Source: Pseudomonadota bacterium (lineage in GTDB: Bacteria > Pseudomonadota > Alphaproteobacteria > GCA-2731375). Taken from it: 58,814 bases of DNA. The stretch covers positions 1 through 58,814 of the forward strand of contig JAQBYC010000013.1 of NCBI GenBank assembly GCA_027623205.1, read 5' to 3'. The number at the start of each line of letters is the position of its first letter. The stretch's first letter is position 1. Both the position numbers and the translations under genes were made by a program. The notes under the pieces are model-generated. The model had not been told where the DNA came from. It was given only the letters and a program-made list of their open reading frames with translations, and did no database searches. Of the stretch, positions 6,362 through 11,945 are shown piece by piece.

Positions 6362-7414
6362 ATGCGTGCATATCAGATCGTGAAATGGGGCGAACCGCTG
6401 GAAGAGCGTGAAGTACCCAAGCCGGAACCGAAGGGGACTGAAGTGTTGATCCGGGTCACGGCGTCCGGCATCTGCCACAGCGACATTCACATCTGGGACG
6501 GCTATTTCGACATGGGTGGCGACAACAAGCTGAGCCTGGAAGACCGGGGCCTGAAACTGCCCTTCACCATGGGCCACGAAGTGCTGGGCGAGGTTGCTGC
6601 TTTGGGCCCGGAGGCAGAGGGCGTTGAAGTCGGCGACCGCCGCATCGTCTTTCCCTGGATTGGCTGTGGCGCCTGCGAGGTTTGCGCCCGTGGCGACGAG
6701 CTGCTGTGTCTGGCCCCGCGCACCGTGGGCACCCGCTATGCGGGCGGCTATGCGGAATATTGCATTGCCCCGCACGCGAAATATCTGGTGCCATTCGACG
6801 GCACCGATGAGCTCCATGCCGCGACCTGCGCCTGTTCTGGCGTGACCGCTTACAGCGCCTTGAAGAAGGTCAATTTCCTGACCAGTGATGACCACCTGAT
6901 GATTATCGGTGCCGGTGGCGTCGGCCTGGCCGGCATCGGCATGGCAAAGGCCGTCTGCGAGGCCAAATTGATCGTTGCCGATATCGACCCCGCCAAGCGT
7001 GCCGCGGCACTGGCTGCAGGTGCGGATATCGTGATCGACAACAGTGATGCCGGTGCCGTCGCGCAATTATTGGAGAGCACGGGCGGCGGGGTCGATGCGG
7101 CGATTGATTTTGTCGGCGCGCCGGCGACCTCGGGCTTTGCCATGCAGACCCTGGCGCGTGGCGGCACGATTGTTGTCGTCGGCCTGTTTGGCGGTGCATT
7201 ACCCCTGCCGGTGGCCAGTCTGCCCTTGAAGATGATGCGTCTGATCGGCAGCTATGTCGGCAGTCTGGAAGAAATGCGCGAACTGATGGCGTTGGTGAAG
7301 GCCGGTAAGGTAAAGCCAGTGCCGACCACGCCGCGGCCGTTGCGCGAAGCTGGTCAGGCTATTGCCGATCTGCGGGATGGCAAGGCGGTTGGACGCTATG
7401 TACTGATCAACTAG
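6362..7414 (+). CDS. Zinc-dependent medium-chain alcohol dehydrogenase
   Basis: A 350-residue MDR-superfamily NAD(P)-dependent alcohol/aldehyde oxidoreductase. Catalytic zinc ligands are Cys38 in GICHSD and His71-Glu72 in GHE; structural-zinc cysteines are 102, 105, 108 and 116 (WIGCGACEVCARGDELLC). The nucleotide-binding loop is GAGGVG at 183-188, followed by an acidic residue pattern (ADIDPAKR) that favours NAD. A strong GGAGGTGAGG ribosome site stands just before ATG 6362. Its 3' end overlaps the convergent dusA by eight bases. Probably it oxidises an alcohol feeding the adjacent CoA-transferase route. Confidence 0.93.
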   Translation: MRAYQIVKWGEPLEEREVPKPEPKGTEVLIRVTASGICHSDIHIWDGYFDMGGDNKLSLEDRGLKLPFTMGHEVLGEVAALGPEAEGVEVGDRRIVFPWIGCGACEVCARGDELLCLAPRTVGTRYAGGYAEYCIAPHAKYLVPFDGTDELHAATCACSGVTAYSALKKVNFLTSDDHLMIIGAGGVGLAGIGMAKAVCEAKLIVADIDPAKRAAALAAGADIVIDNSDAGAVAQLLESTGGGVDAAIDFVGAPATSGFAMQTLARGGTIVVVGLFGGALPLPVASLPLKMMRLIGSYVGSLEEMRELMALVKAGKVKPVPTTPRPLREAGQAIADLRDGKAVGRYVLIN

Positions 7415-8438
7415 CACTGAGCGCCGGCTGGCCGTGCATTTGTGCCAGGGCGGCCTCGAGCAGGCCGCCGTCCGCCCCTGGCCGGTAACTATGTTCGGAG
7501 ATATGCCGCCGCCAGGCGCGGGCGCCTGGCTGACCATGATAGAGGCCCAGCATATGCCGGGTTATGGCGTTCAGGCGTACGCCCAGACCCATCTGTTCCG
7601 CGATATAGGGCAGCATGGCCCGTGCCAGCTCCACGCGGCTGGGCCGGGGGCCGGTATCCGAGAACAATATCTGGTCGACCCCGGCCAGCAGATAGGGCGC
7701 CTGATAGGCGGCGCGGCCTAGCATCGTGCCGTCCACATGCTGCAAATGGCTCTGACATTGCGCCAGGCTGTCAATTCCGCCATTGATAATGATTTCCAGG
7801 TCTGGATGATCCGCTTTCAGCCGGTAGACCCGGTCATAATCCAGCGGTGGCACTTCGCGGTTTTGCTTCGGGCTCAACCCCGCCAAAATGGCTTTGCGGG
7901 CATGGATCGCAAAGCTGTGGCACCCTGCCGCGGCTGCCGTGTCGACAAAATAGCGCAGGAATTCATAGTCGTCCCGGTCGTCGATGCCAATGCGCGATTT
8001 GACCGTTATGGGCAGGTTCGTAGCCGCCCGCATGGCCGTGATGCATTCCGCGACCAGTTCGGGTTCCGCCATCAGACAGGCGCCAAAGCGACCCGATTGC
8101 ACCCGGTCGCTGGGACAGCCGACATTGATGTTTATTTCGTCATAGCCGAAATCTTGACCAATTTCGGCCGCTCTCGCCATGCGCTCGGGATCGGAACCGC
8201 CCAGCTGCAGGGCGATGGGATGCTCTGCCGGCGAAAAGGCCAAAAGACGTTGCCTATCGCCATGAATAACCGCTTCGGCCGTGATCATTTCCGTATAGAG
8301 CAGGGCCCGGCGGCTTATCAGGCGCAGGAAATAACGCGCGTGCCGGTCGGTATACTCCATCATCGGCGCTATGCTGAAACGCCGGTCAAGGCGGTCGACC
8401 TGCGCCGGCGGCGAAGTGTCCTTTAGCGGCCCGTTCAT
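7407..8438 (-). CDS. dusA: tRNA-dihydrouridine(20/20a) synthase DusA
   Basis: FMN-dependent enzyme reducing uridines 20 and 20a in the tRNA D-loop. The N-terminal RRFSIAPMMEYTDRH, QLGGSDPE and NINVGCPSDRVQ segments and the catalytic cysteine in SGRFGACLM (Cys121) are all diagnostic of DusA. ATG 8438 gives 343 residues, the normal length; the frame is open further upstream to 8675 but that extension (VDIIYERRVPYSRK...) is unlike DusA and overlaps the divergent cyclase gene. A possible 31-codon ORF ends five bases before this start. The 3' end overlaps the alcohol dehydrogenase by eight bases. Confidence 0.95.
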   Translation of the reverse strand: MNGPLKDTSPPAQVDRLDRRFSIAPMMEYTDRHARYFLRLISRRALLYTEMITAEAVIHGDRQRLLAFSPAEHPIALQLGGSDPERMARAAEIGQDFGYDEININVGCPSDRVQSGRFGACLMAEPELVAECITAMRAATNLPITVKSRIGIDDRDDYEFLRYFVDTAAAAGCHSFAIHARKAILAGLSPKQNREVPPLDYDRVYRLKADHPDLEIIINGGIDSLAQCQSHLQHVDGTMLGRAAYQAPYLLAGVDQILFSDTGPRPSRVELARAMLPYIAEQMGLGVRLNAITRHMLGLYHGQPGARAWRRHISEHSYRPGADGGLLEAALAQMHGQPALSAS

Positions 8439-8443
8439 CGGCA

Positions 8444-8539
8444 CTAACCCCTGTATGCCGGACGCAGAGTCGCGGCAACGTGACTGAGAGCGGTTATAAC
8501 CTGATCGGCCTTGCCGGTGTATTGGACATCCAGGTTCAT
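8444..8539 (-). CDS. Possible 31-residue leader ORF upstream of dusA
   Basis: On the minus strand an ATG at 8539 follows GAGAAGGAAACGTA, a good ribosome site, and encodes MNLDVQYTGKADQVITALSH... ending RPAYRG before TAG at 8446-8444. The stop lies only five bases before the dusA ATG, an arrangement that would allow translational coupling. No known family was recognised. It could be a real small protein, a coupling leader, or chance. Confidence 0.3.
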   Translation of the reverse strand: MNLDVQYTGKADQVITALSHVAATLRPAYRG

Positions 8540-8661
8540 TACGTTTCCTTCTCGTCAACATCCTCGGTGCGTCCCGGCGCCTATTCTGTGAGATGACGGG
8601 ATACACCTCCCGCAGCCATTTTCCCAGACACTTCCTTGAATACGGCACCCGCCGTTCATAG

Positions 8662-10179
8662 ATGATATCGACCATGAACGCCGCGCAAGCCTATCAAATA
8701 GCCATCCAGACCGCCGCACAACCTGTTCGGGCCCTGCATGCCGGACTAATTCTGGCGGAAAGCGCCAAGGCCTTGGTGATGCACGAGACCGGTTTGACAT
8801 CGTATCATTATTTTCCCCGCGAGGATGTCGCCGAAGGCGTGTTGCAGCCATCTGACCGGCGCACTTTTTGCCCTTTCAAGGGTACCGCCAGCTATTGGCA
8901 TTTGACGTTGCCCGATGGCCGGATAGAAAACGCCGCCTTCAGTTATGAAACGCCGTTTCCGGAAGTCGCGGCCATAGCCGGGCATGTTGCCTTTTTCGAC
9001 GATGCTCTGGATCAAGCTTTATGCCTTGCCGCCCCTGATGTGGGTTTGTCCGGTCCCCTGGTGGATTGGCTGTTGCGGGACGCCTGGATGTGCAAGACCC
9101 AGGAGGAGCTGACCGAACAATTCGGTCGAAAGATGGTCGACATCGGCGTTCCCTTGTGGCGTCTCAGCGTGGGAATTCGCACGCTTCATCCGCAACTGGC
9201 CAGCCGCAATTATAGATGGCTGCGCGGTGGCGACGGCGTGATGGCGTTCGGCATGCCCCAGGGAATGCTGTTGCAACCCGCCTATCTGGACAGTCCCGTA
9301 CGCCATGTCAGTGAAGGTCTGGGCGGCGTGCGCCAACGCTTGGACCTAGCCGGCGAGACCGAGTTCCGCTTTCCCGTGATGGATGATCTGCGGGCCCAGG
9401 GTGGCACCGACTATGTCGCTATGCCGCTGCCGTTTTCGGATGGGCAGATCAATACCATGACCTTGACCTCGGACCATCCGCAGGGATTTTCCACGGCCGA
9501 TCTGGGCGCCGTCTTTCAATGCGTTTTCGGACTCAGCCGGTTTTACGAAACCATGACCCTGCGCCAGAATACCCGCACCCTGCTGACCACCTATCTGGGC
9601 CAGCGGTCGGGAACCAGAGTGCTGAACGGCGAGACCCAGCGTGGGGCAGGGGAGGAAATCCGTGCCGCCATTCTGTATTGCGATCTGCGCGATTCCACCC
9701 AGTTGGCGGCCTCATTGCCGCGTGGCGCCTATCTTGATCTGTTGAATAATTACTTCGAAATAGTATCGGAGCCGATCCTGTCGCGATGGGGGGAGGTCTT
9801 GAAGTTCATCGGCGATGCGGTCCTGGCCATTTTCCCGGTCGAGGGCGATCCAGCCAAGGCCTGCGGCCTGGCCCGCGATGCGGCATTGGAAATTGTCGCG
9901 CGCCTGGCGGAGACGGATCAGCCACCTCTGCGCTGCGCGATCGGCGTGCATCTGGGCGAGGTCACCTTTGGCAATGTCGGCGCGCCGGAACGGCTGGACT
10001 TCACGGTCATCGGCAGCGCCGCTATCCTCGCTGCGCGACTGTCGGAACATTGCAAGGTGCTGGATCAGTCACTGCTGTTCTCGGGCGCCGTGCAGCAGGC
10101 CTTGCCCGAAGCAATGGTGCCGCTCGGCGGGCACGCGCTGCATAACATTTCAGAAGCGACCGAAATTTACACCTCCTAA
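8662..10179 (+). CDS. DUF427 domain fused to a class III nucleotide cyclase domain
   Basis: A 505-residue protein. Residues about 20-118 match DUF427, with the hallmarks YHYFPREDV, QPSDRRTFCPFKGTASYW and FPEVAAIAGHVAFF. A middle region of unknown fold follows, then a class III adenylate/guanylate cyclase domain from about 330 to the end: metal-binding Asp341 (YCDLRDST) and Asp385 (KFIGDAVLAIF), substrate Lys381 and Asp446 (LDFTVIG). The motif that normally reads VN.AARL is AAILAARL, so Ile455 replaces the transition-state Asn while Arg459 remains. Activity may therefore be weak or altered. ATGs at 8662 and 8674 are both possible starts; neither has a clear ribosome site. No transmembrane segment is present. 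Confidence 0.88.
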   Translation: MISTMNAAQAYQIAIQTAAQPVRALHAGLILAESAKALVMHETGLTSYHYFPREDVAEGVLQPSDRRTFCPFKGTASYWHLTLPDGRIENAAFSYETPFPEVAAIAGHVAFFDDALDQALCLAAPDVGLSGPLVDWLLRDAWMCKTQEELTEQFGRKMVDIGVPLWRLSVGIRTLHPQLASRNYRWLRGGDGVMAFGMPQGMLLQPAYLDSPVRHVSEGLGGVRQRLDLAGETEFRFPVMDDLRAQGGTDYVAMPLPFSDGQINTMTLTSDHPQGFSTADLGAVFQCVFGLSRFYETMTLRQNTRTLLTTYLGQRSGTRVLNGETQRGAGEEIRAAILYCDLRDSTQLAASLPRGAYLDLLNNYFEIVSEPILSRWGEVLKFIGDAVLAIFPVEGDPAKACGLARDAALEIVARLAETDQPPLRCAIGVHLGEVTFGNVGAPERLDFTVIGSAAILAARLSEHCKVLDQSLLFSGAVQQALPEAMVPLGGHALHNISEATEIYTS

Positions 10180-10556: not shown

Positions 10557-11945
10557 ATGAGCAACCCCGCTTTTTTTGAGGAAACGCTGCCTGCCATCAC
10601 CGAAGGCTTGGCCCGAAGCGCCGCCGAGCTGCGCTTTGAAGACATTGACGCTGATAGTCTGGCTGTGGCCAAGCAATGCCTGATCGACTGGTTCGCGGTT
10701 ACCCTGGCGGGCGCGGTTGAGCCTCTGACTGGATATCTGCTGGCAGAGGCGGCAGAGGAGGGCGGCCAACCGCGCGCCACTCTGTTTGGCGCGGGAGCCA
10801 AAGGCAGCCTGGCCCAGGCCTGTCTGGTCAACGGCGCCGCGTCCCATGCGTTGGACTATGATGACGTCAATCTCGCCATGGGCGGTCATCCCACGGCCCA
10901 GGTGGTAGCGGCTGTTCTGGCCGTAGCCGAGGATTTGGGCGCCACGGGTCGCGCACTGCTAACCGCTTTCGTAGCCGGTTATGAAACCGAATGCCGGATC
11001 GGCAGTCTGGTTGCCCCCAGCCACTATCAGAAAGGTTTCCACGTCACGGCCACGGTCGGCAGCTTTGGCGCCGCGGCGGGGGTTGGCCATCTGCTGGGTC
11101 TGGATGCCGAGGCCATGGCGCGTGCCATGGGCATTGCCGGTACCCAGGCGGCTGGTTTAAAGGCGCAATTCGGTACCATGTGCAAACCGCTGCATGCGGG
11201 CAAGGCGGCGGGCAACGGCCTACTGGCTGCGCGTCTGGCGCGGCGCGGATTTACCTCGCGCCTGGATATTCTGGAAACATCCCAAGGCTTTGCGGATACC
11301 CAAAGCGATGATTTTCGCGACCAACATGCCCTACGGGCGCCCCGGCGCGGCTTTCATGTGCGGGAGAATTTGTTTAAGTATCACGCCGCCTGTTATTTGA
11401 CCCATTCCACTATTGAAATTTTGGCGGATCTGCGGGACGAAGGGCAGATCACACCGGACCAGATCGACAATGTTATCTTGTCGGTTGATCCGGGCCACTT
11501 GAAGGTTTGTAATATTCAGGAACCCGGCACCGGTTTGGAGGTCAAGTTCAGTCTGCGCCATACCGCCGCTTTCGCTCTGGCGGGAAAAGATACCGCCAGC
11601 ATCGGCAGTTATTCCGATGCCAATGCCCTGGCGCCAGAACTTGTTGCCCTGCGGCGCAAGGTGGCGGTTGCTGGCGACGGTGGCCCCAGCACCCTGGCCA
11701 CGGCCCGCATTAACTTGCATGACGGACAAAGCCTGGAACGCAGCGTTGATGTTGGTATTCCGGCGGAAGATGTCGTAGCCCAGGGCTTGAAGATCGACGC
11801 CAAATTCCGCAGTCTGACCGTGCCTCTGGTGGGAGAGACGGTGGCGGCGGCGCTGTTGGCCGATCTGCACCAGTTGGAAAAATTGGATGATGCGAGCCAG
11901 TTGCTGACCCATGTCGCGGCCTGGCGGGCCGGCGCGCACATATAA
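10557..11945 (+). CDS. MmgE/PrpD family protein
   Basis: A 462-residue member of the family that includes 2-methylcitrate dehydratase (PrpD), cis-aconitate decarboxylase and immune-responsive gene 1 product. Typical stretches are DWFAVTLAGA near 42, GAASHALDYDDVN near 98-108 and GTMCKPLHAGKAAGNG near 206-220, which contain the conserved active-site His and Lys positions. The methylcitrate genes prpC and prpB are not adjacent, so a methylcitrate role is not supported; a dehydratase or decarboxylase of another tricarboxylic or branched acid is as likely. It is 40 bases upstream of a metallo-hydrolase, probably co-transcribed. Confidence 0.9.
   Translation: MSNPAFFEETLPAITEGLARSAAELRFEDIDADSLAVAKQCLIDWFAVTLAGAVEPLTGYLLAEAAEEGGQPRATLFGAGAKGSLAQACLVNGAASHALDYDDVNLAMGGHPTAQVVAAVLAVAEDLGATGRALLTAFVAGYETECRIGSLVAPSHYQKGFHVTATVGSFGAAAGVGHLLGLDAEAMARAMGIAGTQAAGLKAQFGTMCKPLHAGKAAGNGLLAARLARRGFTSRLDILETSQGFADTQSDDFRDQHALRAPRRGFHVRENLFKYHAACYLTHSTIEILADLRDEGQITPDQIDNVILSVDPGHLKVCNIQEPGTGLEVKFSLRHTAAFALAGKDTASIGSYSDANALAPELVALRRKVAVAGDGGPSTLATARINLHDGQSLERSVDVGIPAEDVVAQGLKIDAKFRSLTVPLVGETVAAALLADLHQLEKLDDASQLLTHVAAWRAGAHI

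Follow-up and report, generated by a model that had tools for sequence, protein, structure and literature searches.

What does it mean when a class III nucleotide cyclase that has kept its other catalytic residues carries an isoleucine where the asparagine of the transition state belongs? This question is raised by an open reading frame in the DNA of a marine bacterium of the class Alphaproteobacteria (genome G000). We refer to the whole stretch that was analysed, 58,814 nucleotides, as the window. The original prediction, made from the letters alone, saw in this frame a DUF427 domain followed by a linker and a cyclase domain, and proposed a weak cyclase, a nucleotide sensor, or one half of a heterodimer. 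Herein, we describe the protein and its family, the substituted position, and a second cyclase gene that is missing next to it.

Domain architecture and family

The frame and both of its terminal domains were confirmed. Pfam finds DUF427/NTP_transf_9 at residues 22-113 (E 2.9e-29, 101.2 bits against a curated cut-off of 22.1) and Guanylate_cyc (PF00211) at residues 335-463 (E 5.8e-07, 29.7 bits against a cut-off of 21.9), and a hydropathy scan finds no membrane segment in the protein, in agreement with the predicted lack of a membrane anchor. The part that did not stand is the plain linker, in the place of which we find a conserved GAF-like region. The features of the gene are as follows.

8662..10179, plus strand: ORF of the DUF427-GAF-like-class III cyclase protein, 505 aa; true start probably ATG 8674
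8725..9000, plus strand: DUF427 (NTP_transf_9) domain, residues 22-113, homologous to PDB 3djm
9016..9492, plus strand: conserved GAF-like region, residues 119-277; boundaries approximate, secondary structure of low confidence
9493..9630, plus strand: predicted helical segment preceding the cyclase, residues 278-323; low model confidence
9652..10176, plus strand: class III nucleotide cyclase domain, residues 331-505
10024..10026, plus strand: codon ATC of Ile455, at the site of the transition-state Asn; within the genus, eight of the 10 orthologues have AAT or AAC here and G008 has GCT

Translation probably starts at Met5, since four of the 10 orthologues from the genus (G004, G008, G009, and G010) lack the in-frame ATG equivalent to 8662 and all 10 have that equivalent to 8674. 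Just 5' of the start, a CTTGAA box (8635-8640) is present in all 10 orthologues and is followed about 16 bases on by CATA in nine of them; the two motifs (window 8635-8661) are possibly a promoter.

The protein is a clear member of the DUF427/NTP_transf_9 family (PF04248; PDB 3djm), from which it differs by its fusion to a cyclase, and a profile built from 25 relatives matches PDB 3djm over the DUF427 region with an E of 6.8e-25. Among the solved-structure sequences listed, the other 26 of 27 match the cyclase region. The available part of PMC4287342 describes for DUF427 a beta-tent fold that it has in common with the ligand-binding CULT and MsrB domains, to which its sequence shows no detectable similarity. 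By analogy with this fold, a sensor role for DUF427 would be reasonable. The original prediction took DUF427 to stand mostly alone; in the window's own genome, three ORFs contain it, namely the fusion, an ORF with a single copy, and an ORF with DUF427 twice. The tandem pair lies in a 311-aa ORF (G000:C37:13236-13979, minus strand, loci L003 and L005).

Of 55 segments prepared, 40 went into an alignment, residues 119-330 of the window protein and 39 others, several of which come from cyclases that match the window protein only beyond DUF427. Nine columns are invariant across the 40 segments, and at E <= 1 Pfam recognizes GAF in four of them (best E 1.8e-07) and GAF_2 in eight (best E 2.5e-05). 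The window's own segment has no match to any Pfam family, and a profile search of solved structures with this region gave nothing convincing (hits only at E 0.04 or worse). Residues 119-277 thus appear to form a conserved domain, which we call GAF-like, rather than a mere linker. The order of GAF-like domain, helix, and cyclase domain is shared with the GAF-class III cyclases of the cyanobacterial CyaB type; the window protein differs in its additional N-terminal DUF427 and in a GAF-like region without a Pfam match of its own. Taken as a whole, the protein would be a soluble class III cyclase, probably homodimeric, with a catalytic domain that is probably regulated by ligand sensing in the two domains N-terminal to it, DUF427 (beta-tent) and the GAF-like domain.

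Altogether, 385 genomes of the window's class were searched at E <= 1e-90, and matches were found in 21 of them, including the window genome and three others of its genus; the named relatives are labelled Alphaproteobacteria or Rhodospirillaceae. Dropping all rows unless the match starts by residue 30 and reaches residue 495 leaves 31 distinct full-length DUF427-GAF-like-cyclase proteins, the window's included, a number that rules out the fusion as an artefact. Orthologues occur in 10 of the 11 genomes from the genus; in G001, the best match is a 34% paralogue. One relative, G208, has a different second cyclase ORF 1.8 kb downstream of its DUF427 cyclase (L087:9377-11158, plus strand). Judged by title and the start of the abstract, none of the papers on DUF427 listed from an open-access library describes a DUF427-cyclase fusion.

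The position of the transition-state asparagine

D341, K381, D385, D446, and R459 are all present at the predicted positions, and so is the predicted substitution, as the alignments to solved class III cyclases set their canonical Asn against Ile455. The metal-binding D341 and D385 are invariant in the 31 full-length members, as is the arginine equivalent to R459. K381 and D446 correspond to the base-recognising Lys and Asp; among the 31 members this pair is Lys/Asp in 24, Arg/Glu in six, and Ser/Gln in one, and the joint exchanges are found at loci L057, L058, L068, L069, L071, L072, and L074. In the relatives with an exchanged pair, a change of substrate is possible. The pair of transition-state residues is incomplete in the window protein, where R459 is kept and Asn is replaced. 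A structure predicted from an alignment of 10 rows (mean pLDDT 54.9) is usable only in the cyclase domain, and there residues 455 and 459 lie one turn apart on a shared helix (452-467).

Ile455 turns out to be an exception among the DUF427-cyclase fusions. Residue 455 is Asn in 29 of the 31 full-length members, Ile in the window alone, and Ala in G008, another member of the genus; if cyclases without DUF427 are included, 57 of 60 rows extend to the site (the other three were excluded), and 55 of these 57 have Asn. The other eight of the 10 genus orthologues all have Asn. The idea that the substitution is conserved in such fusions is therefore abandoned: by the criterion of the original prediction itself, orthologues with Asn, Ile455 is private, it does not define a class of DUF427-cyclases, and it is ruled out as a trait of the whole family. 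It is also the sole departure of the window protein from the 80% family consensus, which covers 151 positions.

In most class III cyclases, an Asn-Arg pair stabilises the transition state, as PMC4215837 reports in its available part. The same source describes Ma1120 of Mycobacterium avium, an active adenylyl cyclase with a natural Ala164 for the Asn, the activity of which was strongly lowered when Asn was introduced. Like the window protein, Ma1120 has kept the base-recognising Lys and Asp as well as the transition-state Arg and has exchanged the Asn for a non-polar residue (PMC4215837). On the other hand, that residue is Ala and not Ile, the available part names neither DUF427 nor a GAF domain for Ma1120, and its relevance for activity here is one of analogy. 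As Ma1120 is active without the Asn, Ile455 predicts a changed and probably lower turnover, and the enzyme is not certainly dead; it would be expected to bind metal and a nucleoside triphosphate, with a slower or different turnover. With its metal, base, and Arg residues retained and purifying selection apparently acting on the gene (see below), the window protein may be either the weak cyclase or the nucleotide binder of the original prediction.

A lost neighbour gene

The surroundings of the gene differ from those in most of the genus. In seven of the 10 genomes that carry the soluble gene (G002, G003, G005, G006, G007, G009, and G010), an alpha/beta hydrolase gene and a divergent class III cyclase gene lie between a dihydrouridine synthase gene, presumably dusA of the A subtype, and the DUF427 cyclase. 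In the window, only 271 bases separate the end of the synthase match from the soluble cyclase ORF. The relevant features are listed here.

7407..8390, minus strand: dihydrouridine synthase gene (Dus family), upstream syntenic anchor
8435..8513, minus strand: scar of 79 bases matching, with 72% identity, the G006 junction at which the 5' end of the synthase adjoins the 3' portion of the hydrolase
8521..8578, minus strand: scar of 58 bases, in which the 3' end of the lost membrane cyclase gene with its stop overlaps the initial codons of the alpha/beta hydrolase gene, also lost
8620..8661, plus strand: 42 bases retained from the end of the ancestral intergenic region between the divergent genes, including the CTTGAA box
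10557..11945, plus strand: MmgE/PrpD family gene, downstream syntenic anchor
L047:4477-5874 and L050:4571-5887, minus strand: divergent membrane class III cyclase in relatives, absent from window 8390-8662

The scars are recognizable against two relatives: the junction of synthase and hydrolase gives an E of 1.6e-09 against G006 and 0.002 against G002, and the end of the membrane cyclase gives 6e-10 and 1.7e-06, respectively. When 8401-8660 was shuffled 100 times by mononucleotide, no match to G006 at E <= 1e-3 appeared.

The missing cyclase is about 450 aa long; five hydrophobic stretches precede its catalytic domain, and its set of catalytic residues is complete. Using the G006 protein as the query, whole-genome matches of 72-100% identity (100% being G006's own gene) were found in 8 of the 10 genomes, namely G002-G007, G009, and G010. 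In G004 the gene is apparently split across two contigs, one of which ends beside the soluble cyclase. In G007 the membrane cyclase has an internal stop and the soluble cyclase is frame-split (locus L076, 4940-6301 and 6367-7874), with the hydrolase ORF toward the synthase open; the coverage of this contig is only 4.8, so the breaks may be errors. The gene is lacking in exactly two of the 10, the window genome and G008. A search of the window genome for a relocated copy gave none at E <= 1e-40; its single match was a 402-aa frame with 45% identity over the catalytic domain. G008 has kept the hydrolase, and one weak 25-base match (E 8e-04) in it may be a remnant of the membrane cyclase. G001 has an orthologue of neither cyclase gene.

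Across the window and 14 genome stretches, the divergent pair was seen only in two genera of one family: in G012, from the other genus, the membrane cyclase is divergent to the soluble one with more than 1 kb between them. Weaker matches (41-42%) in G208 and G021 lie on contigs other than that of the DUF427 cyclase.

The two genomes without the membrane cyclase are thus also the two without Asn. They fall into separate clades, both on a tree of up to five neighbour genes (support 97 and 97) and on the protein's own tree (support 97 and 100), and the Asn has therefore been lost twice independently. The chance of so exact a coincidence among ten genomes is 1/45, or 1/120 when any lesion in either gene counts, both values having been computed after the pattern was seen and with the tree used only as two independent clades. 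The association comprises 10 orthologues, all from draft genomes, with two independent events and one damaged pair (G007). Together, these losses hint that the two genes may work jointly, and Ile455 may be tied to the loss of the partner instead of being random.

The plainest alternative is that Ile455 is functionally meaningless, stemming from a faulty assembly or from a variant not fixed in the sampled population, and that it coincides with the deletion by chance. ATC is a single base away from AAC, Ile occurs in no other genome examined, the species is represented by one genome, and the protein otherwise matches the family consensus, all of which would fit. However, a single error was improbable beforehand to hit the catalytic codon 455, G008 has at the same site an Ala codon (GCT) that is two bases away from AAT, and both genomes are without the membrane cyclase. 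We therefore consider this explanation somewhat unlikely.

Selection, possible partnership, and meaning of the loss

If the soluble cyclase had become useless, its gene should decay, and Ile455 could be the first inactivating hit after the deletion. Such an explanation would agree with the deletion of both the partner and the hydrolase gene in the window, with the broken cyclase genes of G007, with the absence of both orthologues from G001, and with the long branch of G008 (see below). The rates of evolution argue against it for the window. Compared with its two nearest orthologues, the window gene has a dN/dS of 0.105 and 0.109, while the two differ from each other with 0.139, and for the cyclase domain alone the same three comparisons give 0.113, 0.085, and 0.107; as pairwise values are averages for an entire lineage, relaxation that began very recently would stay invisible in them. 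On the protein tree, the window branch (0.060) is the shortest of three (neighbours 0.093 and 0.102), though on the neighbour-gene tree (0.114) it is not (others 0.105 and 0.083). The window gene thus looks to be under purifying selection, it otherwise agrees with the 80% consensus, and it has retained the upstream CTTGAA box. For G008, the whole-gene dN/dS against its two neighbours is 0.111 and 0.110, with 0.099 between them; its branch is the longest in its clade on the protein tree (0.159; others 0.116 and 0.110) as well as on the neighbour-gene tree (0.172; others 0.142 and 0.146). Accelerated evolution as a sign of decay is hence absent in the window, and in G008 the branch is somewhat longer. 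The G008 gene also contains a 100-base run of N, and a true insertion in its protein is unsupported as the extra residues include this run. All in all, we regard decay at its first step as quite improbable.

The heterodimer of the original prediction gained indirect support: the gene that ancestrally lay alongside also encodes a class III cyclase, and its loss coincides with that of the Asn. In its specific form, the two cyclases would heterodimerise in most species of the genus, and after the loss of the membrane subunit the soluble one would persist as a nucleotide-binding but non-catalytic signalling protein. The neighbourhood speaks in its favour, with divergent genes in the seven genomes named above, a wider spacing in G012, and a contig edge in G004, and so does the co-loss in the window and G008. 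Obligate class III heterodimers do exist: the available part of PMC8815786 describes them for the chytrid rhodopsin-cyclases, in which one chain has all the catalytic residues. The joint action of two chains in such enzymes (chytrid RGC/NeoR and mammalian tmAC; PMC8815786) is a conceivable parallel, but in the present case neither of the ancestral chains has an incomplete active site. With a complete active site, complementation is unneeded, and the canonical membrane cyclase should manage alone. The catalytic domains of the two proteins are, moreover, only about 27-32% identical, and relatives without this membrane neighbour retain Asn. Critically speaking, a mixed dimer reduced to a non-catalytic signalling protein is thus very improbable.

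A last option takes Ma1120 (PMC4215837, as far as its available part goes) as the precedent. With the membrane cyclase gone, the soluble enzyme could have been adaptively retuned, working better or on another substrate without its Asn. The remainder of the protein is strongly constrained, and the two independent replacements are both aliphatic residues. Yet Ile and Ala are unequal in size, and the unchanged K381 and D446 do not predict a shift in substrate. We give such adaptive retuning hardly any weight.

We tentatively prefer a coupled loss within a two-cyclase module. In the ancestor of the genus, the soluble gene would have stood divergently beside that of the membrane-bound class III cyclase, the two probably forming one signalling module. 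In the lineage of the window, the membrane cyclase gene would have been deleted together with the adjoining hydrolase gene, leaving scars, and the soluble cyclase would have swapped its Asn for Ile while keeping the remaining family consensus. Loss of the partner would thus have accompanied loss of the Asn and left a weaker or retuned cyclase that is still under selection. Relatives in which the surrounding stretch that was read does not contain this membrane cyclase (G011, G015, G208, and G401) keep the Asn, so the partner is not generally needed for keeping it. Given this, the post hoc statistics, and the restriction of the pair to two genera, we put the coupled loss at a little short of an even chance. 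A stronger version holds that the module was possibly a mixed dimer, that in this lineage the Asn was kept only alongside the membrane member, and that the soluble protein was afterwards selected as an Asn-less nucleotide-binding sensor, either non-catalytic or retuned; this we consider unlikely.

Should the coincidence be due to chance, Ile455 is a private mutation of no special note, and the sensor cyclase that carries it is just as ordinary. The conserved DUF427-cyclase family offers a measurable output, cAMP or cGMP, for finding the ligand of DUF427, the fold of which is of a ligand-binding type. If the coupled loss is true, the window and G008 would provide a natural experiment on the extent to which class III cyclases rely on their asparagine and on partner enzymes.
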